Shown here: piece by piece, positions 6,396-59,202 of the stretch
Layout: each line of letters starts with the position of its first letter
How positions within the stretch are numbered: the first letter of the stretch is position 1
NCBI GenBank assembly: GCA_028753945.1
Contig: JAPNXP010000001.1
Location: forward strand, 13,134,501-13,198,500
DNA from: Hexactinellida sp. DTS-2022
Taxonomy: Eukaryota > Porifera > Hexactinellida
Direction: 5' to 3'
Length of the DNA: 64,000 bases
Made by a program: the position numbers and the translations under genes
The notes under the pieces: model-generated
The model's input: only the letters and a program-made list of their open reading frames with translations
Database searches by the model: none
What the model was told of the DNA's origin: nothing

Positions 6396-6626
6396 TTGAA
6401 TTTTTGAATTTCCCTTAGTGGAGTAACTTAAAACATAGAGTAAAAGCGCGTATAAAGAAGAAAAGATTCATGTATGTGTATAATAAATGTGGTGACGTCA
6501 CTGTGCCGCCTATTAGAAGCATATTGTGTCTGGAATATAATTCCTGTTGTTCAAATACTTTTGGCCGGTCGGTGTATTTATCCAATATATAATACTGTAT
6601 CTCCCTCTAGGCTCTACCATTGCCGA

Positions 6627-9600
6627 ATGGATATCTCTGAATTAACTGCGTTGACAGAGTTATCGAATGAGTTAACAATTGGTGACGTGAAGCAAATACG
6701 AAATGAAATTGGAATACCAGAAGCCTTGTGTGAAGATTTGTCGCCAGTTACGAAGTTTCTTTTTGCAATCAGAAGATGGACGGGACACAAACCGTTCCTT
6801 TTTTACATGGCACTAAAGCGTGTGAGGCCTGAATTAACGGAAAAAGCATGTAAAGTTCAATGGCTTTGCAATTCCTCGCCCGACGGGACTGAGTTCCAAC
6901 AAGAAGAAATGTTATCCATTAAAACACTGGTGCAACTTTTGAAATCAGAGATAACTAATGTGCAATGGCTACTCATCTACATGACTGTAACATCTGAAGC
7001 AAGGGAAAATGTTAATTTTTCTGATACACTGAGCCTGCTAATAGAGAAAGGTATTGTTAGGAAAGACCTGAGTGCACTTTGTGAAATCATTAAAGGAATC
7101 CAGAGAGACGATGTTGTGAGAAAACTTGTGGCTTATAAGAATCTATTCAACCAAATGGATGATGGCGAATTTGAAAACAAATTTAAGCGAGAATTGACAA
7201 GTCAGGTCAAAGAAATGAAACAGTGGGATGCGAATTTAAAAGATTTCTTACAAATCCAACACAGCACAGTTAAACAAATGTTGGGAGATGTCGTATCGGT
7301 TAATCTAGCAGAGGTGTTCATCGACTTAACAATCCTAAAAGAGAAACCTCGACCCATTAATTTCCAAGATGAAACAACCTACAACGAAATTGCCTATCTC
7401 AGAAAGATAGCAAATAAAGAAGTAACAATAAAGCCAGTTGACTTCACAAAAGAATTGACGACATATGAATCTAAAAAGCCGGAAATTTGGTGCATCATAG
7501 GCAACCCCGGCAGTGGCAAAACATTCCTGGCCAAGCGAACAGCCCTCAGATTTAGTAGCAACGAACTAACCGGGATTCAATACTCAATTTCAATTCCCTG
7601 CCGCAATGAAGAATGGCATTCTATGGAGGTAGCAAGAATCCAGGAGGATAAGAAAGTTGACTCGGTATTTATACAAAAATGGATATGTCTGGGATTGCCG
7701 GTTGGACCCAGTTGGACAAACGATTTGGCGAAGCACTTGAACGAATCGAGTGGAGACGGAGTCCTGTTCATTATTGACGGACTAGATGAGTTTACCAGGA
7801 AAGTGCCATTCGAGAAAACATTTCTATGTTTGCTGCTGACCCGTCAAACCATGATAAAAGCAACCATAATTCTAACGAGTCGCCCCGGGGCATGGACTGA
7901 CATCTCCTCTGCACACGAATTGAAAGTGAACCGGTACTATCAGGTGCTTGGGTTCTCGCCAGCCAACAGAGACCTTTACTTCGAGAAACAAATACGCAAC
8001 GAAAAGAAACTGGCAGAATGCAAGAGTTTGCTAAAGAGACATGACGAAATGGATCAGCTCTCGTTAATCCCAGTAAATGCGTCCCTTTTCGCAGCTCTAC
8101 TGAAGGGAGAAGACTCCACTCTCATTAACACTCTGACAAACCTCTACTACGAATTAACGCTTTACCTGATAAGGAGAGAACTGGCCCGAACGGGACTACC
8201 AGAATTCACACGGGTGGAACGTATATCCGATCTCCATGCCGACATACTTGAATGCCTAAGTAAAGTAGGATTCATCGCAATGCTCGGGGTAGCGAACAGA
8301 GAACTAACATCGGAGGAAAACGTGCCTCTAACAATCGGACAAGAGGTATACCCCAGTCAGTGCTTAGGTCTAGCTCATGAGCACTACAGAACTAACTCTG
8401 TCGGGTTGATAACCAAGGTGTGGACATTTGTGCATCTGACCATGCAGGAGTTCGTCTCTGCTCACTGGGTTAGCAACACTTCCTGGACAAAGCAGTGCTT
8501 TAGCATCAGGTACATATCCCACTCAGTTGATAACTTCTCGCTTTTCAAAATGGTGACCAGATTCCTGTGCGGGCTCGTGACAGAAAAAGCAGCGGTTTTG
8601 CTAGTCATTATGTACAGGCACCTAACCCCGCAACCAATCCCAATGATTGGAATGCCTATTACTTTCCAGCTAAGATATAGAGATATATATGGCATGAGTG
8701 TGTGGGAAGAATTCACTAAAATATTTTTCGAATTAATCGCCATTGTATATGAAACAAATTCACTTTCATTAGCTACCTGGTTTAATAACTTCAAAGAGTA
8801 TTTTCCTACTCACATATACCTCTATGTGCGACAAGCCGTCTCTCCAAATGAATGGTTTTGTTTCTGTCAGTCTCTCAAACTTGTTAATCGAATTCAACTC
8901 ATTTACATCAACACTAGTCGCATCAAGCCAACTCAGTTCAAATGTTTGATACAGGAAATGGGAATTTGTTCAATTAATTTATTAGCTTTGTACTTCTACA
9001 AACAAGATTCCACTACAGTCCTGTCATATACCGAAACAATTAGAGAGACAGGAATTAAGTCTGACACTAAAGTTAGTATTGAGCTATCCAACTGTGATCT
9101 CAGTGCTGAGACAGATGTTAATCTCTTTCCTACACCAACCAATCAGATTATACACAGCTTGAGACTAACTTTGAATGAATATTCACATAAAGCTCTTCAG
9201 GAATTAACCAATCTATTCTCTGCTATTCAATGCTTATTTGTTTGGGAATATGATACTAATTACGTCACTATGGTACCAGCTCTGTGTCAGGCGACACAAC
9301 TAAGAGTATTACACCTCGAAAACATTCCTTCTAAACTCATTCCTAGCCTAACAGCTGTGCTACCTCAGTTCTCTAAGCTACAAGAGATTGCATTTGAGAA
9401 TACCTCACTGCTACCTGCAATTACTCATCTGTCAAATATAACTTATCTACAGATACAAGATACAACTAAAGACACAACTCTCTGTGAATATTTGTTGCAG
9501 ATTATTAATGGGAACAGACACACATTAAGAGGAATGGATTTGTATAATTTGGACAGTATTGGATTGAATAATTGGAGTTTACTTCTCAATCGTTTTGAAC

Positions 9601-9968
9601 TTTGCACTAATTTAGTTCATCTAAAGCTATGGGACATTACTCTACCAACTAATGATGTCACTCAGTGGAGTAGCGCTATTAAACAAATGAAGTCTTTAGT
9701 TGAATTGGAATTCTATACTGTCTCCCTCTATGACACAGGATTATTATCTCTCTGTGAAGGCCTGATATACCATCCTGCTATTAGGAGTATAGAGCTAACA
9801 GACTGCAAGCTGACCTATCTATCCTGTGAGCCTCTAGCTAACCTAATTCCAACTGTCTCACAGCTGGAGACACTGAGTGTTAATGAACTATCTGAACCTG
9901 ACAGAGATCCTATCTCATTACTCAAGGAAACAGCTGATGAGTTTGGTATTGAGCTTAACCTGGATTAA
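6627..9968 (+). CDS. NACHT-LRR receptor A (death-fold/NACHT/LRR), 1113 aa
   Basis: This is an intracellular NLR-type pattern receptor, expected to oligomerise through its NTPase on ligand sensing by the LRRs and to signal by death-fold contacts. In order: two death-effector-like helical segments (about residues 5-75 and 95-170, the second with GIQRDDVV), a short coiled coil, NACHT with Walker A GNPGSGKT (292-299), Walker B LFIIDGLDEF (380-389) and sensor-like TSRPGA, a helical/winged region, and irregular LRRs from about 770 to the end. The ATG at 6627 is preferred: an upstream in-frame ATG at 6474 lies before a good acceptor (CTCCCTCTAG ending 6610), and the paralog at 54116 starts at the same place and also has 1113 residues. 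The frame is fully intact in a single coding exon. Domain calls are by eye; the DED label is less sure than NACHT and LRR. Confidence 0.92.
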   Translation: MDISELTALTELSNELTIGDVKQIRNEIGIPEALCEDLSPVTKFLFAIRRWTGHKPFLFYMALKRVRPELTEKACKVQWLCNSSPDGTEFQQEEMLSIKTLVQLLKSEITNVQWLLIYMTVTSEARENVNFSDTLSLLIEKGIVRKDLSALCEIIKGIQRDDVVRKLVAYKNLFNQMDDGEFENKFKRELTSQVKEMKQWDANLKDFLQIQHSTVKQMLGDVVSVNLAEVFIDLTILKEKPRPINFQDETTYNEIAYLRKIANKEVTIKPVDFTKELTTYESKKPEIWCIIGNPGSGKTFLAKRTALRFSSNELTGIQYSISIPCRNEEWHSMEVARIQEDKKVDSVFIQKWICLGLPVGPSWTNDLAKHLNESSGDGVLFIIDGLDEFTRKVPFEKTFLCLLLTRQTMIKATIILTSRPGAWTDISSAHELKVNRYYQVLGFSPANRDLYFEKQIRNEKKLAECKSLLKRHDEMDQLSLIPVNASLFAALLKGEDSTLINTLTNLYYELTLYLIRRELARTGLPEFTRVERISDLHADILECLSKVGFIAMLGVANRELTSEENVPLTIGQEVYPSQCLGLAHEHYRTNSVGLITKVWTFVHLTMQEFVSAHWVSNTSWTKQCFSIRYISHSVDNFSLFKMVTRFLCGLVTEKAAVLLVIMYRHLTPQPIPMIGMPITFQLRYRDIYGMSVWEEFTKIFFELIAIVYETNSLSLATWFNNFKEYFPTHIYLYVRQAVSPNEWFCFCQSLKLVNRIQLIYINTSRIKPTQFKCLIQEMGICSINLLALYFYKQDSTTVLSYTETIRETGIKSDTKVSIELSNCDLSAETDVNLFPTPTNQIIHSLRLTLNEYSHKALQELTNLFSAIQCLFVWEYDTNYVTMVPALCQATQLRVLHLENIPSKLIPSLTAVLPQFSKLQEIAFENTSLLPAITHLSNITYLQIQDTTKDTTLCEYLLQIINGNRHTLRGMDLYNLDSIGLNNWSLLLNRFELCTNLVHLKLWDITLPTNDVTQWSSAIKQMKSLVELEFYTVSLYDTGLLSLCEGLIYHPAIRSIELTDCKLTYLSCEPLANLIPTVSQLETLSVNELSEPDRDPISLLKETADEFGIELNLD

Positions 9969-10163
9969 CTTCTCACCTCTGCTATCAAGGTATGTATTCA
10001 CTTTATTATCTGTTAATAATGTCTACTCCGCTTAATCGGGTCACTTTGGTTCGAGGATAATTGACTAGATTAGGCGGAGAAATCGATAAACCGAAAGTAT
10101 GTAACTTAGAGGTTCTTTATTAATTGTATACAGTCCTACTGGTAGGAATCCTATAGTATAGAC

Positions 10164-10373: not shown

Positions 10374-10880
10374 CTTTAGACCTTAGTTGTTTTATACGTA
10401 CATCTTTAATTGGATAAGTATCATGTATAATACGCATAATGTAAACATGTTATACATATACCTTGATTAATATCGCGCTCTTTGAATTTGCTTATAACAA
10501 CTTTCGGTTTATCGATATTATTTTATTGATAATCGAATTTAGAATTTGATTATATGCTGCATCTTGTATGTATTTACAACAAGATTTAAAAATATACAAC
10601 TGAATTTACTTCGAAATAGGCATGTTTTCGATGGATAGCGAATTACGTACAATGCGTATTATACGTATTTTACATATACTAATTACAAAATTTGGACACA
10701 AATAACATAATTTTGACGCAATTATACAATTTTTAAAAATTAGCTTCAAGTTGCACGATTTTCTTCCCAAACAAGACGGTTGACTACATTAACCACTAAT
10801 GTATTTGTTTCCATCATCATTATCCATGTAACTGTTTATATAGTTTGTTGTTGTTACAACATTCTAAACCGAATTTCCAC

Positions 10881-11601
10881 CAGGGTTGCCAACCCTCTCG
10901 CTTTGGCGGGAGTCTCCCGCATTTTGCCATTTTTTCTCTCATCCTCCCGACCTCCGCCAAACTTTTAAAACTCCCGCTTTTTGGAAATTGTTTATATACA
11001 GTCGACTCCGCTTAATTGGGTCACATTGGGACCAGGTCTTTTTGACCCGATTAAGCGGAGAAACCGATTAACCGAAAATATTTTAAGCCAAACTGTAATT
11101 CCGTCCCATAAATCCGGTGAAAATTTGACCCTATTAAGCGGAGAAACCGATTAACCGAAAATATTTTAAGCCAAACTGTAATTCCGTCCCATAAATCCGG
11201 TGAAAATTTGACCCTATTAAGCGGAGAAACCGATTAACCGGTGTCCCGATTAAGCGGAGTCTACTGTATTTAGATTTTATGATAATTAAGTAAATAACGG
11301 GATTTGTTTTAATTATTCAAGTAAATTAGTCAACCTACGAGCAACAAGTTTTTTTAGTTGTAGTTTTTAATTTTCAGTTTTTTTTCGAGTACCAAGTTTT
11401 TTTCCTAATTGTAGGTATCAAAACATACTAAATAATCATATTATATCGTTCTATTCATGATGGATTTTTAAAAATAGCATATATATTGAGTCTCCCGCTT
11501 TTCTCCCGCTTTTTCATCTTCGACCTCCCGCTTTTTGGTAAAACTCCCGCCAAAATTGGCAAAATCTCCCGCTTTTTTGTTTTCAGAGGTTGGCAACCCT
11601 G
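10881..11601. mobile_element. hAT-like nonautonomous element, 721 bp, with perfect target duplication
   Basis: The inverted ends CAGGGTTGCCAACCCT and GGTTGGCAACCCTG are flanked by identical octamers ATTTCCAC (10873-10880 and 11602-11609). The paralogous intron at about 58250 reads GAATTTCCATTTGACTC without the element, an empty site. The interior is rich in CTCCCGCTTT motifs and is interrupted by a nested pogo-like MITE. There is no transposase. Confidence 0.9.
10999..11266. mobile_element. pogo-like MITE nested in the hAT element
   Basis: TA-flanked ends CAGTCGACTCCGCTTAATTG and TTAAGCGGAGTCTACTG are inverted repeats. Inside, an 83-bp unit starting TTAAGCGGAGAAACCG is present twice plus a partial third start (11051, 11134, 11217), so the element has grown by tandem duplication. 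Confidence 0.85.
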
Positions 11602-11758
11602 ATTTCCACTTGCCTCTAAGTGATATTTAACTTCCACTAACAGTTCTATAAGAGCCATTAACCACTGCATCTATATTTAGCTAACAACTGCTATACAGAT
11701 AGTTATTAGCCACTTGGTTAACCACTCCTCTGTTTGATACCTTCTCTGTCTCCTCTAG

Positions 11759-11892
11759 ACTACACCTCGTATTCCTCTCCTCTCCAGTCTCCCTCTCGTT
11801 CTCATCTGTTTATTCGTATTTGGAACTAACTTTAGTGTTTATTTGTGTATACTCTTGTTTGTATTTATCAATAAACACTCTCTCAATTGAAT
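11759..11892 (+). terminator. Terminal 3' UTR exon and poly(A) signal of NLR A
   Basis: The exon begins after CTCCTCTAG. AATAAA lies at 11870-11875, and a GT-rich stretch (GTGTTCGATC) follows about 20 bases later, the usual cleavage context. The exon is nearly identical to 58404-58537, which strongly suggests function. The cleavage site is approximate. Confidence 0.7.
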
Positions 11893-11996
11893 TGTGTTCG
11901 ATCTTACTGAGTCTACTTTAATTAATGCAATCCTTTACACAACTAAACATTACATCTACATACATGAATCTGGTTAAATACTAGTTTTCACTTATA

Positions 11997-13857: not shown

Positions 13858-14907
13858 TCAATTAAAGTAATCAGCAATCACTTTTAGGCGAACTGCATGT
13901 CCGCTAGTCATGGAATCAAGAGGTAGGATCTCTTCATCTTCTTCTATCTCAACAAGCGATTCTTCTTCCCATTGCAACCCATGATCAATGCAAATATTAT
14001 GTAATATCATCGTTGCAATGACTAGTTTACAGATTCTCTCTGGTGCGTAACATAGTATACCTCCACTCCTGTCCATAGATCTCCAGCGGCTCTTCCATAA
14101 GCCAAATGCACATTCAATTGTTTGGCGAGTTTTCAGGAATGCACGTTGATATCTTCTTTCGCCAGGTGTTGTTGGAGAATGGATCGGTGTCAATAAATTA
14201 GGGCGTAAAGGATACCCACTATCTCCGAGGAACCACCCGTTGACGATTGGTATTTCCCCGCTTGAAATTTTATTGTTAATCCCAGACTGTCTCCAGATAA
14301 ATGCATCATGTGTGCATCCTGGCCATTTTGCGACAACATCGATGAATCTCCAATCACTGTCACAAATAGCTTGGATGTTGATCGAATGTTCGTTTTTTCT
14401 GTTTACATAAATTTCTTCATTATTTGATGGTGCAAGAATAGGCACATGTGAACAATCAATGCATCCCAGTACCAAGGGGAATCCAGCCTTCTCTAAAAAG
14501 GCTTGTTGCACTTGTATTTGTTTTTGTTGAGTAGGAAAATTTATATAATCCTTGGCAAATGAGCAGAGAGCATCAGATACTGCAGCAACACATCTTGACA
14601 CGGAAGGTTGAGAAATACCATGTGTAGTTGCAATGACAGTCTGGAAAGATCCTGTTGCCAAGAATTGTAGGGCAGCACCCAATTGAGTTATGGTTGGAAT
14701 CGAATGTGATCTAATAGTAGATCGGTGAATGCGTCCGACAATTTTGTCATGTAGTTCTATGAAAATACATCGAGTAAACCTATATCGACTGATAAATTCT
14801 GTATCGTTGTATGAGTCGAGAGGATTTAATCTATCTCGGAACACTCTCTGAAGGGCTAAACTGTGATCTGTATCGAGTTCAAGTAGAAAAGTGCAAGTGC
14901 CATTCAA
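13858..14907 (-). CDS. PIF/Harbinger DDE transposase (HARBI1-like nuclease), 349 aa
   Basis: This is the nuclease that cuts and joins Harbinger ends. An N-terminal helix-turn-helix-like region (about residues 75-115, QFLATGSFQTV and GISQPSVSR) precedes the DDE_Tnp_4 fold. The catalytic acids can be seen: D151 in LGCIDCSH, D229 in FLGDSGYPL, and E265 in RQTIECAFG; PGCTHDAFIW (D201) is also conserved in the family. The length is normal for the family and the frame is unbroken, so the protein may be active. It lies inside matched terminal repeats, opposite the Myb-like gene. The start is the first ATG of the frame, just inside the subterminal repeats. Confidence 0.93.
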   Translation of the reverse strand: MNGTCTFLLELDTDHSLALQRVFRDRLNPLDSYNDTEFISRYRFTRCIFIELHDKIVGRIHRSTIRSHSIPTITQLGAALQFLATGSFQTVIATTHGISQPSVSRCVAAVSDALCSFAKDYINFPTQQKQIQVQQAFLEKAGFPLVLGCIDCSHVPILAPSNNEEIYVNRKNEHSINIQAICDSDWRFIDVVAKWPGCTHDAFIWRQSGINNKISSGEIPIVNGWFLGDSGYPLRPNLLTPIHSPTTPGERRYQRAFLKTRQTIECAFGLWKSRWRSMDRSGGILCYAPERICKLVIATMILHNICIDHGLQWEEESLVEIEEDEEILPLDSMTSGHAVRLKVIADYFN

Positions 14908-15249
14908 AATAGTTCAAAGTATATAAAATATATTAAGCCGTTTTTCTATGATGAAGCTCAAATACTTCAAGAATCTGCGAATTTGGTAATTATTCATTAA
15001 ATATCCGCTAGGCATAATAAAATCTGTTAATATTCAAACCATTAATCATGATATACTAAACTAAGTATATACTTAGTTTTTACTTAGTTTTAGTCAAAAC
15101 TAAGTAAAAACTAAGTATTAAATTAAGTATAAGAAAAATGAAAAAACTTAGCATAAACTAAGTATTTACTTAGTTCAAGTATAAGTTAAGTTTAAATTAA
15201 GTTTAAGTTTAAGTTTAAGTAGTTTAGTGAATAAGGCCCCTGGGGGGTT

Positions 15250-26005: not shown

Positions 26006-26151
26006 TATACAGTATTGTAACCTGCATACACAGTTAGTTAGTTTAGTGCTATGGGGGTAATCTCCATTTGGCTACAAGCGGTTATACCGTTATACCCTCT
26101 TGGTTATAACGGGAGTATAACAGTGTGTGCTTATAACGGGAATATCCTCAC

Positions 26152-26449
26152 CATCATCAGACACTATGTACACATATCCCTCTGCTCGAAACATAGAAAT
26201 GTACTTTCTGTCGAAATTAATATCTTGAGCTTTGGCCAGCAATACTGCACCCACCACGAGATTAGCCGCTAGTTGTGATGCTCTAATCAGGTACACTGGG
26301 TTTTGGTCAGTTTGTCCTATCGTTACACCATTGCCAGACGCCGTATAGAGACTAGACACGTTATTAGAGGTGTTAGCGAACACAAGCAGTACCCCTAGGT
26401 CCTCTGACATTTCTAACTGATCGGTTTGCACATTCGAATCTAAAATTAA
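26152..26449 (-). CDS. Sema-like exon, probably the plexin 5' part
   Basis: After TTTTAATTTTAG: QTDQLEMSEDLGVLLVFANT, later NPVYLIRASQLAANLVVGAV and DRKYISMFRAEGYVYIVSDD, ending at a donor GATG GTGAGG. The GYVYIVS strand after a hydrophobic stretch resembles a sema-domain blade, and position and strand fit the plexin. An open frame also runs from here into the upstream LRR fragment, so the boundary is not certain. Confidence 0.5.
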
Positions 26450-27084
26450 AACAGATAAAGTGGGAATATTGGACAATTGGCGACTTAGCAGAGTTAAAGC
26501 TTTTACTCCAAGTTTATTCCTAGCCAGATTAACAGATGAAAGGTGACGTGACTTAGAGAAATAGCTAACAATATCTCTAAAGTTATCATCATAAACGATT
26601 CCGCACTGCAACACCTCAACACTTTTATTCTATTGACTGCAAGAGAGCTGGCGATATGAGCAGCCCCCTCCCCTCCAATAGTATAGTCCAACAAGTCGCA
26701 TTGGATACACTCGATCCCAAATTCTCTGATACTTTTATTCAATGCTAGGGAATCTCCAATCAGTTTGGCTCCAACTGAACTCACGCCGTTAAATCGAAGG
26801 AAGAGGTTAGTGATACGAACGGAGTTTGCTATGTAGCTAGAAAAACGTTCCATACACAGGTCTGTAACTCTGCAAATAGTTAAATCCAGTTTGGTTAAGT
26901 ACTGCAGGTGTATCAAGCTGCTAGTTAGTTCGTGTATCTTGTCATCTCCCATTAGACATTCTACCTGGAGAGCGGGGGCGGTTGGATCGAGGAGAGAAAG
27001 GTCGTTTCTCCCGTTAATCATTATAGATTGGAGGAAACCTTTATGCGAATCCTTAATGGAAGGAAGGCTATGCTTACCTGCCAT
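26450..27084 (-). pseudogene. LRR protein fragment (ribonuclease-inhibitor-type), one frame break
   Basis: From the ATG at 27084 on minus (MAGKHSLPSIKDSHKGF) the text runs through LRRs (LTKLDLTICRVTDLCMERF, ITNLFLRFNGVSSVGAKLIG). Near 26610 a one-base shift is needed to continue into DDNFRDIVSYFSKSRHLSSV and NLARNKLGVKALTLLSRQL. It lacks a NACHT or other domain and stops at the sema-like exon. It may be the tail of a former NLR or a small LRR gene. Confidence 0.65.
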
Positions 27085-27490
27085 AACTAATAAACTCTAT
27101 TCCATGGTATAAATAAATTCCCAACTTTCCATATACGTGTATATACTATTATTAAAACTCGATTCATGTGAGTTTATTTGCTTGCTTGAATTGTATTGAA
27201 GTGATAGGAAATAGAAACCGCGTTTTTATTTGAGATAGAGACAAATTTCCAAATTTTAATAAGCAAACGAGTACGCTTTTGCATTTACAAATACTATATT
27301 ATGAATACTAGTTATGTTGTTGTTTACTAAAATAGATAACCAAATTACGCAATTACAGGAACTTCATATATTAAATCTCTATCTTATTCTTAGATATTTT
27401 AACCAAACAACAAAATATTAACCATACGTATTCGCAATTTGACAATACTAAATTCAACATCAGATACTATCGATCCACTACACTTTAAGG

Positions 27491-40752: not shown

Positions 40753-41458
40753 TTCGCCAAGTCATCAACGCCCAAGGTGTGAAGAACCATTTGTTAATTG
40801 GTCGGAGTCACAAGGAACGATTGTTGAATTTGAAGTTTGTTTCTATCATAAACCATCTAGAGTTTAATGCCATTCATTCATTTTGTATTGATAATAAAAT
40901 ATATTATTAGTAATTTATTTTAGCAATGTTATCCACGGTTGGTTGAGTTGAGTCAACAAATTCCTTATATTATATTATTTATTTAATCCATTGTATAGTA
41001 ATACTACAATTAAATAGAAGCCAGCTGGAATTTATAAGTTGAATCAATATATTTATCGCAAGTTGAAACAATAGAGTAAGATTTAACAAGTGAAATCAAT
41101 ATAATTATTACAAGTTGAAACAATGGAATTAGATTTAACAGTTTTACTGAAATTGAAGTGTGAGTAAACAAAGGAAATTTGAAACTCAATTGTGGCACAA
41201 ACGAAACCCAATTAAAAAATTCGTGCTCTGTGAAAAGGTGTAGAGTTTAATTCTCTATCGAATGCATATAAATTATATATTCGCGCACTATTTATTGATC
41301 TTTTTCTAATATTAAACAGGTGCAAAAATGTGTCCATAAAAATGTAATCAAAAATCGTGACCCCAGGTGCACATCTGTAACCCATGAGACACATATCCTG
41401 AAAATTTGGACTCTTAGTAAATAAAACTCTGTTCTGTGGAGAATCTACGGACTAATAA

Positions 41459-41585
41459 TAAAAAATCCAAAATTGCGCTGTGCCGACACATGCTCCTTTG
41501 GTGGTACTATATTTTGGTGGTGGTTTATTGATAGTGCCTCCAAAGGAACATGCTGTCGGCACAGCTGCAATTTTGGATTTTTTTT
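41459..41585. mobile_element. Long-hairpin MITE, ~127 bp
   Basis: Same family and size as at 40626, in the next unit of the 1.25-kb repeat. Confidence 0.85.
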
Positions 41586-42707
41586 CGCCATGTCATCATT
41601 ACTTTGAGGTGTTAAATTATTTCAGAAAAGTGTTTCAGAAGGCAACGACCCTTAGAGTGGCGGAAGTTTCCATTTAGCTCACTTCATTTTAGAGATATTC
41701 TAGTTTCGGTAGAATATAAAAGGTGATGACTCAGCATTTTATGTGCGTGTTGGGTGTTCAGCCAACACCAACTAACCCATTCTAAATATAAAATTCACAA
41801 AATTGTGAAAACACATTTTTTTGACGATGTCATCATCACCTCAAGGTGTCAAGATCCATTTGTAGAGGTGTTACGTGACATAAGGACCAATTGATATATT
41901 TAAAGTTTGTTGCTATCTTATATATTTCCTGAGATTAATACAATTTAGCTAATTAGTATAAATATTTAATTAATTTATTAATAATTTAACACCATTATTA
42001 TGTACAGCAAAATAAATTAAGTTCAATTATTTGCAAACATTATTAATTTAAATTGAATTTCACTATAATATTTGAATTCAACGCACTGGATAACCCCAAT
42101 AATCTAATTGGAACCGTCTCTATAAGTTAAACACAGAGCGAATTAATTTTAATTAAATATGTCAGTGTATCCATTGTGCAAGAATATTCTCGCAAAAATA
42201 AATATAATCACATAATCTGTCGTTGTTATGGAATGTAAAATCTTAATTTTCAATTGGAAAATAGAAGCCTAACCGATCTCACAAGTTGAATCAATATAAT
42301 TATCGCAAGTTGAAATAATATAGTGTAATATATTTAACAAGTTGAATAAATATAATTATTACAAGTTGAAACAATAGAATTAGATTTAACACTCTCAATT
42401 GAACTGAAGTGTTAGTAAACAAAGGAAATTTACAACTCAATTGTGGCACAAACTAAGCCCAATTTGAAAATTCGTGCACTGTGAAAAGGTGTAGAATTAA
42501 ATTCTTTATCTAATGCATATAAATTGAATTTTCGCGCACTATTTATTGTTCCTTTTTTAACATTAAACAGGTTCCAAAATGTGTCCAAAAAAATGTTATC
42601 TAAAATCGTGACCCCAGGTGCATATCTGTAACCCATGAGACACCCATCCTAAAAATTTGGGCTCTTAGTTAATTAAACTGTTCTGTGTAGAGGATACGGA
42701 CTAATAA

Positions 42708-42836
42708 TAAAAAATCCAAAATTGCAGCCTGTGCCGACGCATGCTCCTTTGGTGGCACTATATTTTGATGGTGGTTTATTGATAGTGCCTCCAAAGGAAC
42801 ATGCTGTCGGCACAGGCTGCAATTTTGGATTTTCTT
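42708..42836. mobile_element. Long-hairpin MITE, ~128 bp
   Basis: Same family as at 40626 and 41459; spacing to the previous copy equals the unit length of the tandem repeat, so it was amplified with the array. Confidence 0.85.
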
Positions 42837-43213
42837 TCGCCAAGTCATCATCACAATGAAGGTGTTAATTATTTCACAAAGGTGTTTCAAAAGGCAACGT
42901 CCCTTAGTGAGTTGGAAGTTTCCATTTTGCTCACTTTATTTGAGAGATATTCAAGTTTCAGTAGAATAAATATGTGATGACTCAGCATTTTTTAAGTGCG
43001 TGTTGGGCATTCACCCAACTCCAACCAACCCATGCAAATTATTTAATTCACAAAATTGTAAAAATACATTTTTTTGACGATGTCATCATCACCTCAAGGT
43101 GTCAAGACCCACTTGTATAGGTGGTACCTGGCATTTGTGATTTACAAAAATATGTAAACAAATAAATCAAAATTAATTTAATGTTTCACAACTACTCAGA
43201 TTTTTGTGATATA

Positions 43214-52432: not shown

Positions 52433-54115
52433 ATATTTGAGATATTCTCACTAAAATAACAAACTATAATAAGGAAACAACCGCAAACAGATCATTAGAA
52501 ATGAGTAATACTAGTGGCTTACTTAGCCACCATCAATATTTGATTTTGTCGTGCACTGCTGCTGTTGAGGTTAGACAGTCTGAATATAGTGGGCCGCTTC
52601 TATATTTTTGGCCTCTGTAAACTGCATTTACGGTCCTGTATTAAGCATGTCATGAGTACATAAACATATATCTGAATTACAATTTATCAGCCTAATTGTG
52701 GAAGTATTGTTTGTATTATTACAAATTATAGCTGATGAAATACTTTTAGCCGCTTAGTGTATTTACATTAGTAGATGCTTCAACTTGGATATTTTACATA
52801 AAAAGACGTTAAAGTGTAATAAAATAGCAAATCTTTTGAATATTTTTATGAAGCTGTAAGCGAATATTGTGTCGGCATTAAAATCATATTGTTCAGATAC
52901 TTTTGGCTGATTAGTGAAAGTAGAACCTCGATAATAAATAAGGGGAGACTGGAGAAATATGTTGGCATTGTCGGAAATTTCTATTGGCCGTCATAATGTC
53001 ATAGTAGTTATCATGCATTAATTTGTATATTGGCTAAGGGAATTAAAATTTGTACTTAACCGAAAAGTCGCCATCATGCCTTTTCTATTTCGGCGACTGA
53101 TTTTGGAGGATTGTTTGTTTGTTGAAAGTTGTATTATATTTCAAAAAGTCATCCTATCAGCCATACTTGATTGCTTTTAAGCAGTTGCAGTTCTTTTCAT
53201 CTTATCTTTGGGATTTGGCACTCTACGTACCTCCCACGTCTAAGATCAGCTACTAGCTATAGTTAAATTCCCATGTACTATATATGTATCGAAAATATTC
53301 AAATTCAATATAGTGCATCTTAATATAGTGACACTTTATTATTGTGATTCACTTAATAAAGGGCCGTATATGACAGTGAGAAAGCCAAAAACATAGAAGG
53401 CCGAAATATAATATTGATTCGATTTTCAGCCAAACTTTCACTCAAATCAACAGCCAATAAAACTTTCTAGTGGCGACCATATACCGTATTCACTCGAACA
53501 ATCGCCCTCCTCCTAAGCGATATAAAATTAAAACCCAAATTAAATGCTAAATAGACCTGCATTTAACTAGGTAACTTGGAAAATCCGGAATTTTTTTATC
53601 ATACAACACCAGATGAGCACTAAGGGGATTTGTTTAACGGGATAATAGCGCTTAAAGTATTTCCTCAAATAGCAAATAGCAATAAATACGATAACAAATT
53701 AATTTAAATCTATATATTTTGGACAAAGTGGGTCATCTTATGCACGAATATATGTCAATAAATCACAGATATACTTGTAATGTAGGCTATTGATTAAGTG
53801 TAAATGAATTTTTGATGTTGTGTAAAAATGAGACGAAATATATCAAAAATGGAATGGAAGCTTCTGGTAGAAAATATTAGATAAGATCCCAAACCCGATC
53901 CTAGTATGTAAGTGAATCTACACTCCGATCACAATCCTTAAAAAACGATCGCTATAAAAATGATAGATAGAAAACTCTTATGCCCCATGTATTATGACTT
54001 TATGAGTAAATATTAATTATCACATTGGTTATAGACCACCTTTTGAGTATGTATGTAGATAAGAATTATCCTAACTTTATTTTAACAAACGCTTTATTTG
54101 TGTAGAATTCCGGAT

Positions 54116-57100
54116 ATGGCAATCGAAGAGCTATCTGCCTTAACGGAACTAACCAACAAATTAACATCCGAAGAAATAATACGAATCAAGAATGAAATCG
54201 GTATCCCAGAAGGATTGTGTGAAGATATCACTCAAAAATCGAATTTCCTAATCGCAATGAAACAATGGAAAGGCAGAGACGCCTACAAGTTCTATCTGGC
54301 CCTACAGCACATCCGACCCGACTTGTCAGAAATAGCTTGTGATGTGAAGTGGCTATGCGCCTCATCCCCAGGAGAAACCGAATTCCAAGAGGAGGAACTG
54401 TCAATCAAAACTCTAATCAATCTACTGAGAGATGAAATCCCTATGGATAAATGGACGTTAATATACATAGCACTGATAAATGAACCAATTGAGAATATAA
54501 GTTTTGAAATGGTCATGAACAAACTGTTGGAAAACGGATTTATTCAGAAAGACCTGAGAAATCTAACAAAGATCCTGGTGGGAATCCAAAGAAATGACGT
54601 GGTTGTACAATTGAAGGTCTACATTACTTTATTCTCGAAAATGCAGGAAGGAGAGTTTGAAAGCAAATTCAAAAAGGAAATTGACAAACAAGCAAAAGAA
54701 CTGGAACAATGGGAAATGAAACTAAGAGCGTTTGCAAAATTACAATTCGAGAATATTAAACAAATGATTGGAAAGGATAAATTGGTGAGCCTGGAAAGCG
54801 TATTTGTTGATTTAACAATTTTAAAAGAGGAACCCAGAGAAATAAACATAGAGGATGAAACGACCTATAATGAAATTGCATACCTCAGAAAAATTGCAAA
54901 TAAGGAGGTTGAAATAACGCCTGTGGATTTTACAGAAGAATTATTAGAGTTTGATGCTGCAAAGCCTGAAATTTGGTGCATAATCGGGAATCCGGGATGC
55001 GGTAAGACATTCTTGTCAAAGAGAACTGCTCTCAGATTCAGTCACAAAGAATTAGTCGGAATTCGATACTCAATCTCGATTCCCTGTCGCGACACTAACT
55101 GGCACTCAATGGAGTCGACACGATATGATAATGCAGCAGAAATTGAGACAGAATTCATCACAAAATGGCTTTGTTTAGGCTTGCCAAATGGCGCCAATTG
55201 GTCAAGGGACCTAGCTAAACACCTGGCAGGGTCAGATGGTGATGGCCTCACATTGATAATAGACGGGCTGGATGAATTTACCAAAAAGGTACCTTTCGGA
55301 AGCACATTCTTATGTTCGTTATTAACACGAAAATCGCTCACAAAATCAACGATAATTCTAACAACGCGACCTGGGGCATGGACCGTCATATCCTCTACAA
55401 ACGAACTGATCATAGACCGCTATTATCAGGTGCTGGGCTTCTCGCCAGAAAACAGGGACCTATATTTCCAAAAACAGATTACAAGCGAACGCAAACTGAA
55501 GGAATGCTTTAACCTAATGGAGCGACACGACGAAATGAAGCAACTATCCCTAATCCCTGTAAACGCATCGTTATTCGCGGCACTATTGAAAGGAGAGGAT
55601 TCTACCTCGATTAATACGCTAACCAAGCTCTACTACGAATTAGTACTATACATGATAAGGAGAGAACTAATAAGAATGGGCCTAAAGGAATACTCTCGAG
55701 TCTCACGCATTTCAAACCTCCACACAGACATACTAGCCTGCCTGCATAGAATAGGATTCATAGCAATCCTCGGAGTGGCAAACAGAGATCTGGTATCGGA
55801 AGAGACAGTAACTCTCAATTTGGGACAGGAAGAATACCCATGCCAGTGCTTAGGTCTAGCTCACGAGCACTACCGAAAGGAATCCGTCGGACTTATGAAA
55901 CAAGTGTGGACATTTGTCCACCTGACTATGCAGGAGTTCGTATCTGCCCTCTATTTGGAACACACTAGCTGGATTAAGCAGTGCTACAGTGTTAGGTATA
56001 TTTCCCACTCCGAGGCTAACTTCTCTCTGTTCCGAATGGTAGTCAGGTTCCTCTGTGGACTCCTGTCTGATAAAGCAGCTGCTCTTCTTTCCATCCTATA
56101 CAGGTACCTGACTCCTCAGCCCATTCAGATAATCGATATGCCTATGAGCTATCAACTTACCTACAGTAATTTGTATCACCATGAAGGCTGGAATCTATTC
56201 ACCAAAATCAATTTCCAATTAGGATCGATTTTGTTTGAAACTAACTCAGATTCAATTCCATCTTGGTTCAATAACTTCAAACAACACTTTCCGATGCCAG
56301 TGTACCTGTATGTACGAGAATCCGTCTCTCCTAATGAATGGATTTGTTTTATTCAGACTCTCAAACTGGTTCGTAGAATTCATCTCATATTTATCGACAC
56401 TACCCATATCAATCAAACCCAATTCCACTCTTTGATCCAGGAAATGGGAATCTGTTCTATTAATTTATTAGCTTTGCGCTTCGTTCAGAAAGATTCCACT
56501 ACAGTCCTATCGTATACCGAAACAATTAGAGAGACAGGAATTAAGTCTGACACTAAAATTAGTATTGAGCTATCCTACTGTAATTTCAGTGGTGAGACAG
56601 ATGTTAATCTCTTTCCTAAACAAACATATCAGTTTGTAGACAGCTTGAACCTAACTAGGAATACATATTCATATACAGCTCTTCAGGAATTAACCAATCT
56701 ATTCTCAGCAATTCATTGCTTATTTGTTTATGAATCTGAAACTAATTACGACACTATGGTACCAGCTCTGTGTCAGGCGATACAACTAAGAGTATTACAC
56801 CTCTATGACATTCCTTCTAAACTCATTCCTAGCCTAACAGCTGTGCTACCTCAGTTCTCTAAGCTACAAGAGATTGGTTTCGAGAATTCCTCACTGCTAC
56901 CTGCAATTAGTCATCTGTCAAACCTAACTTATCTACGGATACAAGATCGTACAACAGAAGACACAACTCTCTGTGATTATTTGTTACATATTATTATTGG
57001 GAACAAACACTCAATAAGAGGAATGGTATTGTATTGTTTGCACAATATTGGATTGAATAATTGGAGTTTGCTTCTCAATTGTTTGGAACTTTCCGCTAAT

Positions 57101-57457
57101 TTAGTTCAGCTAACGCTATTTGACATTACTCTACCAACTAATGACGTCACTCACTGGAGTAGCGCTGTTAAACAAATGAAGTCAATCGTTGAATTGCTAT
57201 TCTATGATGTTCCCCTCTCTGACACAGGATTATTATCTCTCTGTGAAGGCCTGATATACCATCCTGCTATTAGGAGTCTAGTGCTATATGCCTGTGAGCT
57301 GACTTCTCTATCCTGTGAGCCTCTAGCTAACCTAATACCAACTGTCTCACAGCTGGAGACACTGACAGTCGAGGGACTATCTGAACCTGACAGAGATCCT
57401 ATCTCATTACTCATGGAAACAGCCGATGAGTTTGGAATTGAGCATACGTTGCGTTAA
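54116..57457 (+). CDS. NACHT-LRR receptor B (death-fold/NACHT/LRR), 1113 aa
   Basis: Paralog of the gene at 6627 with the same length and domain order: two death-effector-like segments (FLIAMKQWKGRDAYKFYLAL, LRNLTKILVGIQRNDVVVQL), NACHT with Walker A GNPGCGKT (about 291-298) and IIDGLDEF, sensor-like TTRPGA, and LRRs to the end. The ATG at 54116 follows a good acceptor (TTTATTTGTGTAG ending 54105) and gives an N-terminus aligned with copy A (AIEELSALTELTNKL). Intact, single coding exon. The NACHT half has many silent differences from copy A, the LRR half few, but those few mainly change residues at exposed LRR positions. Expected to act in the cytosol as a sensor; the ligand is unknown. Confidence 0.92.
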   Translation: MAIEELSALTELTNKLTSEEIIRIKNEIGIPEGLCEDITQKSNFLIAMKQWKGRDAYKFYLALQHIRPDLSEIACDVKWLCASSPGETEFQEEELSIKTLINLLRDEIPMDKWTLIYIALINEPIENISFEMVMNKLLENGFIQKDLRNLTKILVGIQRNDVVVQLKVYITLFSKMQEGEFESKFKKEIDKQAKELEQWEMKLRAFAKLQFENIKQMIGKDKLVSLESVFVDLTILKEEPREINIEDETTYNEIAYLRKIANKEVEITPVDFTEELLEFDAAKPEIWCIIGNPGCGKTFLSKRTALRFSHKELVGIRYSISIPCRDTNWHSMESTRYDNAAEIETEFITKWLCLGLPNGANWSRDLAKHLAGSDGDGLTLIIDGLDEFTKKVPFGSTFLCSLLTRKSLTKSTIILTTRPGAWTVISSTNELIIDRYYQVLGFSPENRDLYFQKQITSERKLKECFNLMERHDEMKQLSLIPVNASLFAALLKGEDSTSINTLTKLYYELVLYMIRRELIRMGLKEYSRVSRISNLHTDILACLHRIGFIAILGVANRDLVSEETVTLNLGQEEYPCQCLGLAHEHYRKESVGLMKQVWTFVHLTMQEFVSALYLEHTSWIKQCYSVRYISHSEANFSLFRMVVRFLCGLLSDKAAALLSILYRYLTPQPIQIIDMPMSYQLTYSNLYHHEGWNLFTKINFQLGSILFETNSDSIPSWFNNFKQHFPMPVYLYVRESVSPNEWICFIQTLKLVRRIHLIFIDTTHINQTQFHSLIQEMGICSINLLALRFVQKDSTTVLSYTETIRETGIKSDTKISIELSYCNFSGETDVNLFPKQTYQFVDSLNLTRNTYSYTALQELTNLFSAIHCLFVYESETNYDTMVPALCQAIQLRVLHLYDIPSKLIPSLTAVLPQFSKLQEIGFENSSLLPAISHLSNLTYLRIQDRTTEDTTLCDYLLHIIIGNKHSIRGMVLYCLHNIGLNNWSLLLNCLELSANLVQLTLFDITLPTNDVTHWSSAVKQMKSIVELLFYDVPLSDTGLLSLCEGLIYHPAIRSLVLYACELTSLSCEPLANLIPTVSQLETLTVEGLSEPDRDPISLLMETADEFGIEHTLR

Positions 57458-57478
57458 CTTCTCATCTCAGCTAATAAG

Positions 57479-58403
57479 GTTTGTATTCACTTTATTATCT
57501 GTTAATAATGTCTATTCTACTTTTTAATCGGGTCACTTTTGTCCGAGGATAATTGACAATATTAAGCGGATAATTCGATAAATCGAAAAACATATACATT
57601 AGGTACTTAGGCCGTATAAAGTAAATAACTTGTTTATCATCCCCGCCCGCCCCAATTTTACTATCCGTCCGGATCTATTTATTATTATCTTATGAACATA
57701 ATCGTACAAGATATTAGCTACTAACTTATGTAAAGTACCTACTATGCCTGAATATTTAATAAGTCCTATATTTTAGAGCATTACTTTAATTATTTGGGCA
57801 TTGTCGTGTTATTTTCTGATTAAATTAAATATTTATATTTATTTTTTGGAGTAGTATGATGTTATTTGCATATTAATGGAAATAAAAAATAAAAATAAAA
57901 TCCCGTCCGCCGTCCCAATTTTCTCGCAAAATATGGTTGGTAAACAAGTAATTTATTTTATGTGGCCTTAGCTGAAACTATTCACCAAATATTTACCCTC
58001 TTAATATCTTAATTAGTTTTGTAAGCGAATACTTTTAAAATTAAACAAAAATATTTGTAATATTTACCAAATTTAGACGTGAATAGCAATACTTTGACCT
58101 CACCTATGACAGTAATTACTACCATGACAGACTTACTACCTCTATTACTAGTACCTTGGATGTTCTCCTTAAATGCATTTGTTTACCTCGATTATCTATG
58201 TAACTGTTTATACAGTTTGTTGTTGTTTACAACATTCTATACCGAATTTCCATTTGACTCTAAGTGATATTTAACTTCCACTAACAGTTCTATAAGAGCC
58301 ATTAACCACTGCATCTATATTTAGCTAACAACTGCTATACAGATAGTTATTAGTCACTTGGTTAACCACTCCCTCTGTTTGATACCTTCTCTGTCTCCTC
58401 TAG
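57479..58403 (+). other. 3' UTR intron of NLR B
   Basis: Donor AAG then GTTTGTATTCAC lies 21 nt after the stop, exactly as in copy A; the acceptor is CTCCTCTAG at 58403. The interior has an empty site for the 721-bp hAT element of copy A at about 58250. No gene is seen in it. Confidence 0.65.
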
Positions 58404-58537
58404 ACTACATCTCGTATTCCTCTCCTCTCCAGTCTCCCTCTCGTTCCTATCTGTTTATTCGTATTTGGAACTAACTTTAGTGCTTATTTGTGTATTCTAT
58501 TATTTGTATTAATCATTAAACACTCTCTCAATTGAAT
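58404..58537 (+). terminator. Terminal 3' UTR exon and poly(A) signal of NLR B
   Basis: Nearly identical to 11759-11892. The poly(A) hexamer is ATTAAA (58515-58520) instead of AATAAA, a common weaker variant, so 3' end formation may be less efficient than in copy A. Confidence 0.65.
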
Positions 58538-59202
58538 TGTTTTCAATGTGATTCAGTTTACAGTTAAACTCACTAGCATAAGTGTACTTTAATGTTGCTG
58601 TAATTACCTCACTATATACAGTACATATTGGATATTGTGATATATTGGATAAAGTGATAATTTGGCCAAAAATCTCACGTCCCCACCATTATTACTATCC
58701 TATATATTAAATCCATTACGTACTGTAATACTCATCTATTGATGGATAGAAACAAATACGTGTTTTGGCTTAGAAGCGAAATATTAACATTAACTCGTTA
58801 ACTCTAACTAGCAGCCTGACAATGGGTAGCACTTCCCATAGCTCGATACAAATCCAATTCTAACCCAATTGTTATTATTCGTAACAGCGACGTTAGTCAC
58901 GAGAGCTCATGTGTGGAATCTGAGGTTAATATAACAGCTGTTTCTCTGGGAATAGGCAGAGCATTAATCGCTTCGCATTCTTGGAAAGTGGAGCGAACCT
59001 AAATTCAATTGTAGCCAGCTTCCGTCTTCCTAAATGAGCGCTCTTTTTCGGTTCCTTTTACTATCAATTAATTAGAGGCATTATTCGTTTGAAACAATAT
59101 ATGAAGAGGTTTCTAGTACTTTCTACCAAATGAATTATCAATTAATGCACTCATACTGTATTTTCCAACCTAAGACAGCTAAATCCCCTGAATTTCAGAC
59201 TT

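Follow-up and report, generated by a model that had tools for sequence, protein, structure and literature searches.

Receptor genes A and B

The 64-kb stretch of Hexactinellida sp. DTS-2022 DNA analyzed here (assembly GCA_028753945.1, contig JAPNXP010000001.1, positions 13,134,501–13,198,500; designated as the window) has a GC content of 37% and carries two intact receptor frames, genes A and B, on one strand (Table 1). To judge from their sequences, both fit the animal-type NLR family, with a NACHT ATPase domain and C-terminal leucine-rich repeats (LRRs) of the ribonuclease-inhibitor type, as a preliminary description of this DNA had proposed. In this study, we found that the LRR ends of the two genes are far more alike at silent sites than the rest of the genes and that their residue differences are concentrated at three positions of the LRR strand, which points to diversifying selection on the concave surface.

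The NACHT matches of A and B both exceed the curated Pfam cut-off, and in a search among solved structures the best match of the NACHT part of B was NLRP3, while the LRR parts matched ribonuclease inhibitor first and NLRPs next (best sequence match, ribonuclease inhibitor PDB 4peq, E 3.4e-23). No Pfam LRR model scored above its cut-off in A or B, although the LRRs are supported by these matches and by the structure model described below. Neither B30.2/SPRY at the C-terminus, nor WD40 repeats, in whose place the LRRs stand, nor LRRNT/LRRCT caps around the LRRs gave a Pfam match up to E 1; NACHT is present instead of the caps. With both proteins as queries, tblastn recovered A and B only within the window, all other matches having E of at least 0.89.

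Close to the N-terminus, a death-effector-like stretch of A gave a weak Pfam match, the corresponding piece of B gave none, and the search of the N-terminal region against PDB profiles returned one weak, irrelevant match (E 0.27). A T- or CT-rich stretch followed by AG lies 16 nt (A, 6600–6627) or 10 nt (B, 54090–54116) upstream of the ATG. These stretches stand in the same reading phase in the two genes, and a first exon encoding an N-terminal domain may lie upstream of both.

Silent divergence along the two genes

The first 781 aligned codons, hereafter the body, differ between A and B at 69% of their silent sites, which is near saturation, and their ratio of nonsynonymous to synonymous divergence (dN/dS, ω) is 0.12. 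Silent divergence falls to 11% at nt 8973 of A and remains low until about 130 bp beyond the stop codons. A change-point fit placed the step at nt 8973 of A and 56459 of B (2-unit support, 8937–9009), with a 2lnL of 249 as against a maximum of 27 among 1000 codon shuffles; 121 of the 183 fourfold sites 5' of the step differ, compared with 12 of the 120 on its 3' side. When the 1112 aligned codons were divided at nt 8930, dS was 1.9 (near saturation; ω 0.14) for nt 6627–8929 and 0.135 for nt 8930–9968. The coding part of the tract that begins at the step comprises 331 codons with 71 residue changes and has 113 nucleotide differences in 993 (dN 0.126, dS 0.115). Beyond the tract, only short matches (E at least 0.026) were found over a further 580 bp in B and 700 bp in A, and the 5' flanks showed no similarity better than E 0.009.

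The LRR parts had been described beforehand as nearly identical in DNA. This is borne out at 88.6% over the tract, but a recent origin of the pair does not follow from it, because silent sites in the 5' three quarters of the genes are nearly saturated; the step itself had not been seen. Since silent divergence steps at 8973 and similarity ends near 10096, the LRR end became alike separately from the rest of the gene. Gene conversion is most likely responsible and is the simplest cause, with a direction that cannot be read from two copies; unequal exchange would be a less simple one. No sign of exchange of single repeats was observed, and the LRR block would have moved as a whole.

We also considered the opposite order of events, in which the LRR end remains from a whole-gene duplication of more recent date and one of the copies later received its 5' three quarters from a distant paralog. 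This would account equally well for the step, and retroelement pieces downstream of A and B are collinear (10798–11916 with 58172–58561, plus further ones). However, similarity does not extend more than about 130 bp beyond the stop codons, and less divergence separates the retroelement pieces (Jukes–Cantor (JC) distances of 0.06 and 0.09) than the two copies of the tract, which fits separate insertions of the same family better than a single shared event, without proving them. We thus regard this order as unlikely.

Two features were noted in the downstream DNA. The 3' edge of the tract is formed by a 65-bp repeat in A (10032–10096) and in B (57524–57588), the two being 88% alike; farther downstream of A, looser copies (66% and 63%) occur at 11013–11077 and 11096–11160. 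The retroelement pieces include a long terminal repeat (LTR)-like piece 0.7–0.8 kb past both stop codons (10798–11916 and 58172–58561), which in its two parts is 88% and 94% alike between the two sides; the A-side copy is interrupted by some 720 bp of inserted DNA (10880–11601) with inverted-repeat ends. The presence of the same LTR-like family beside A and B may reflect chance or a shared event.

Replacements at the concave positions of the LRRs

In the ribonuclease-inhibitor fold, positions 5, 7, and 8 line the concave side. We set the register of the 12 repeats of A and B by the LxxLxLxx motif and found that the residue was changed in 23 of the 36 codons at these positions but in only 48 of the 295 other codons of the tract (P 4e-9). 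Every repeat has at least one concave change, with position 5 changed in nine of the 12 repeats, position 7 in six, and position 8 in eight; position 10 is changed in 6/12. In the core, position 6 is changed in none of the 12 repeats and position 4 in one (I to L). The preliminary description had anticipated this pattern: it stated that the differences cluster on the LxLxx strands and mostly alter the residue, that the scaffold Leu residues are kept, and that exposed positions look diversified, and the five A/B motif pairs it quoted (IELTD/LVLYA, LEFYTV/LLFYDV, LKLWD/LTLFD, MDLYN/MVLYC, and LHLEN/LHLYD) are all found in the translations. Its statement that all the changes noticed in 9786–9821 alter the residue was correct for the six replacement codons listed but overlooked two silent changes, at 9804 (TGC/TGT) and 9813 (ACC/ACT).

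By the Nei–Gojobori method (NG86), dN at positions 5, 7, and 8 is 0.62 against a tract dS of 0.115, a ratio of 5.4 (P 2.6e-9), whereas dN elsewhere in the tract is 0.081. When positions 3 and 10 were added, 30 of 60 codons were changed and dN was 0.40. A purpose-written codon likelihood (GY94, F3x4) with separate concave and non-concave classes in the tract gave maximum likelihood (ML) estimates of ω of 6.84 for the concave class, 0.70 for the non-concave tract, and 0.117 for the body; ω = 1 for the concave class was rejected (2dlnL 37.6, P 9e-10). The NG86 ratio stayed between 4.6 and 5.9 with four tract starts, on omission of each of the 12 repeats in turn, and in the nine repeats whose modeled strand starts at position 3. 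Among the 29 registers obtained by shifts of −14 to +14, the unshifted one had 23 changes and the runner-up 17, and no more than 19 were reached in any of the 29 registers across 3000 simulations under neutrality. The concave replacements are also more radical than those elsewhere (mean BLOSUM62 score −0.91 versus 0.02, P 0.015).

The non-concave tract, with an ω indistinguishable from 1 (P 0.2), is under weaker constraint than the body, as would be expected if the LRRs had merely been released from constraint or were decaying. Such relaxation cannot raise ω above 1 at defined positions, unless multinucleotide mutation accounts for the fit; moreover, both frames are intact and core position 6 is unchanged throughout. 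We consider relaxation or decay most improbable.

Structure model of the LRR region

The variable sites were mapped on a model of the LRR region predicted from B with A as the sole other alignment row (pLDDT 70, pTM 0.69). The best Foldseek match of this model was chicken ribonuclease inhibitor (PDB 4per, TM 0.70), and NLRC4 and NLRP structures were among the best 50 matches listed. In all 12 motifs the residue at L4 lies within a predicted strand, and in nine the strand starts at position 3. Changes are rich in the strands (20 of 66 residues) and in the four residues that follow them (19/47), which together account for 39 changes in 113 residues, as against 11/119 in the helices; other loops have 21/99. 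Within the strands, 17 of the 33 residues that are not hydrophobic in both A and B are changed, compared with 3 of the 33 that are hydrophobic in both. A full-length AlphaFold model was poor (pLDDT 36) and was not used as evidence; by our own reading, it places 10 of the 12 LRR strands in the same register.

Silent clock, multi-nucleotide changes, and the case against selection

The noncoding flank within the tract served as a neutral yardstick, and because its JC distance (0.137) is close to the tract dS of 0.115, the silent sites of the tract are not specially constrained. No antisense frame of at least 100 aa overlaps the tract in A or B. The 62 strand codons whose residue is unchanged have a proportion of silent differences (pS) of 0.11; in the eight repeats with at least two concave changes, pS of such codons is 0.10, whereas about 0.69 would be expected for unconverted islands (P 3e-11). 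This low silent divergence of the neighboring codons rules out that the concave codons lie in old islands that escaped conversion, and the concave changes are, for the same reason, point changes on a homogenized background.

Several observations weigh against diversifying selection as the source of the concave changes or limit its interpretation. Replacements involving two or three nucleotides make up 16 of the 23 at concave codons but 4 of the 48 elsewhere, and when multi-step codons are left out the excess is not significant (7/49 versus 20/228, P 0.18). Measured against their own silent sites alone (4.8/22, dS 0.255), positions 5, 7, and 8 give a ratio of 2.4 rather than 5.4. Position 3, which likewise adjoins the core, is changed in just one of the 12 repeats. 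The register was chosen from the motif with the differences already in view; the shift control and the model nevertheless agree with it. None of the pattern matches in viral_contigs (63 and 51) and genome_contigs (210 and 227) was confirmed as a relative by tblastn. Finally, only two sequences were compared, and their branches cannot be polarized.

The first of these observations is what multinucleotide mutation, or a mutator acting at these codons, would produce by inflating dN. Multi-step codons are nevertheless expected at a dN of about 0.6 per site, even though multinucleotide mutation can mimic them, and the excess persists when one event is counted per changed codon (23/86 versus 26/241, P 6e-4). 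The change types at the concave codons are mixed (AT 13, AG 10, GT 7, AC 6, CG 3, and CT 2), which rules out a one-base-specific mutator, and mutation should not choose positions 5, 7, and 8 yet spare position 6 between them. A mutational artefact is therefore very unlikely.

The comparison of only two sequences bears on the mode of selection, as lasting diversification and a single burst look alike in such a pair. One copy could have gained a new partner after the exchange and had its concave face remodeled once by directional selection; two sequences would then give an identical dN/dS pattern. Against this stands the weak argument that one new interface might be confined to a smaller area, whereas every one of the 12 repeats has a concave change. 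We hold such a one-off divergence to be rather unlikely, though credible.

Proposed history and comparison with known systems

We consider it likely that a conversion-like exchange gave two old signaling chassis one sensor and that diversifying selection then remodeled the concave face of that sensor, a putative ligand-binding surface. The bodies of A and B diverged long ago and are kept by purifying selection. Later, a segment of about 1.1 kb that starts near the beginning of the LRR domain and runs some 130 bp beyond the stop codon became alike, most likely by gene conversion. Since then, point substitutions have accrued at strand (LxLxx) positions 5, 7, and 8 roughly 4.5–7 times as fast as expected under neutrality, with little change in the leucine core and helices. 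If the concave surface is a recognition face, such selection would yield a pair with two specificities on two signaling chassis.

In plant NB-LRR resistance genes, the xxLxLxx positions, i.e., the same LRR positions as in A and B, are diversified, and sequence is exchanged between neighbors; those genes differ from A and B in having NB-ARC rather than NACHT, LRRs of the plant type, and an independent origin. The lamprey VLRs are set apart by their LRRNT/LRRCT caps, not found in A and B, which carry NACHT. Ribonuclease inhibitor, which the LRRs of A and B match in fold (PDB 4per) and sequence (PDB 4peq), is a soluble inhibitor without NACHT.

Closer parallels in evolutionary mode come from fungi and fish. 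As described in the consulted part of PMC1805685, the Podospora NACHT-WD40 genes of the het-d/het-e family combine concerted evolution of the repeat domain across genes with positive selection on the interaction surface, and the selected codon pairs flank a conserved codon, as in A and B; however, their WD40 repeats are swapped unit by unit, while in A and B, which are of the animal type, the whole LRR block is concerned. Fungal ANK and TPR repeats are portrayed similarly in sections of a review of fungal NLRs (PMC4986451), which also presents relatively invariant microbial patterns as the activators of animal NLRs. The zebrafish NLR-B30.2 genes, in the portion of PMC4852459 used here, resemble A and B as a large animal NLR family in which NACHT and the recognition end differ in how conversion acts on them and dN/dS of the recognition domain is high, but there B30.2 is selected and the LRRs are 'not particularly variable,' whereas in A and B the LRR itself is homogenized and selected. 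It is tentatively conceivable that the family to which A and B belong does with its LRRs, in an animal, what the NWD family does in fungi and the B30.2 family in fish: a fast-evolving LRR block, beginning near the onset of the LRR domain and ending just past the stop codon, would be passed in the germline by conversion among old, diverging NACHT chassis kept by purifying selection and then be re-diversified on its concave face.

Among animal NLRs with LRRs, the bird genes share the NACHT-LRR architecture and positive selection on some LRR codons; in NLRC5, according to an excerpt of PMC8105094, five of 39 selected LRR codons fall in the segment LxxLxLxxN/CxL, the segment that carries the signal in A and B. 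The sponge Dysidea avara likewise has NACHT-LRR genes, in expanded families, many members of which lack a recognized N-terminal domain; the terms 'positive selection' and 'gene conversion' do not occur in the main text of that report (PMC12909245). LRR polymorphism of invertebrate NLRs is named as a hint of specific recognition in a passage of a 2020 review (PMC7308585). Among the titles and abstract openings listed by our literature searches, a scope outside which most subscription papers fall, we recognized no report of selection on the concave face of an invertebrate NLR LRR, and we claim no priority.

In summary, an animal-type NLR here shows on its LRR face the sort of selection signal familiar from plant resistance genes. 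Noncoding DNA served to check the silent clock, and the selected stretch was apparently exchanged independently of the signaling body. Whether NLR sensors diversify in a plant-like manner in animals without adaptive immunity thereby becomes a question testable on named residues.

Table 1. Genes, domains, tract, and LRR strands. Strand rows give A coordinates, each covering positions 3–8 of one LRR, with the changes at positions 5, 7, and 8 from A to B
Feature	Coordinates	Strand	Description
NLR gene A	6627–9968	+	Uninterrupted coding frame, open from 6456; ATG at 6627 common to B
NLR gene B	54116–57457	+	Uninterrupted coding frame, same strand as A, 47.5 kb away
Death-effector-like stretch of A, weak	6942–7142	+	DED E 0.00056, 20.5 bits (Pfam cut-off 35.9)
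NACHT domain of A	7488–8000	+	Pfam NACHT E 2e-16, residues 339–509
NACHT domain of B	54974–55480	+	Pfam NACHT E 1.5e-15, residues 293–461
Homogenized tract in A	8973–10096	+	LRRs 1–12 (our count) and ~130 bp past stop codon; ~1.1 kb; from change point
Homogenized tract in B	56459–57588	+	Partner of 8973–10096
Noncoding 3' flank within tract	9969–10096	+	16 differences in 128 sites against 57458–57588, JC 0.137
LRR 1 strand	8985–9002	+	5 Y>R, 7 Y>V, 8 K>Q
LRR 2 strand	9075–9092	+	8 N>Y
LRR 3 strand	9156–9173	+	5 R>N, 8 L>R
LRR 4 strand	9231–9248	+	7 W>Y
LRR 5 strand	9306–9323	+	7 E>Y, 8 N>D
LRR 6 strand	9384–9401	+	5 A>G
LRR 7 strand	9444–9461	+	5 Q>R
LRR 8 strand	9531–9548	+	5 D>V, 8 N>C
LRR 9 strand	9618–9635	+	5 K>T, 7 W>F
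LRR 10 strand	9702–9719	+	5 E>L, 8 T>D
LRR 11 strand	9786–9803	+	5 E>V, 7 T>Y, 8 D>A
LRR 12 strand	9870–9887	+	5 S>T, 7 N>E, 8 E>G

Other elements in the window

Two overlapping minus-strand frames within 26090–27096 resemble parts of another LRR gene. The best solved-structure match of one of them (26503–27096) was radial spoke protein 15 (E 2e-4), with the NLRP3 LRR at E 0.0035, and neither frame matched a Pfam family up to E 0.01. A type III hammerhead ribozyme lies at 463–516 on the minus strand (53.7 bits; Rfam gathering score, 48.5). The minus-strand frame at 13858–14913 encodes a DDE_Tnp_4 transposase (E 4.5e-34), which we take to be of the Harbinger type, and a hAT dimerisation match just under the cut-off and an integrase core were also found nearby in the window. 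Taken with NACHT and the ribonuclease-inhibitor-type LRRs, these elements would fit an animal. An 880-bp stretch is present in two copies, at 41012–41881 and 42259–43134, which are 87% identical and about 1.25 kb apart.

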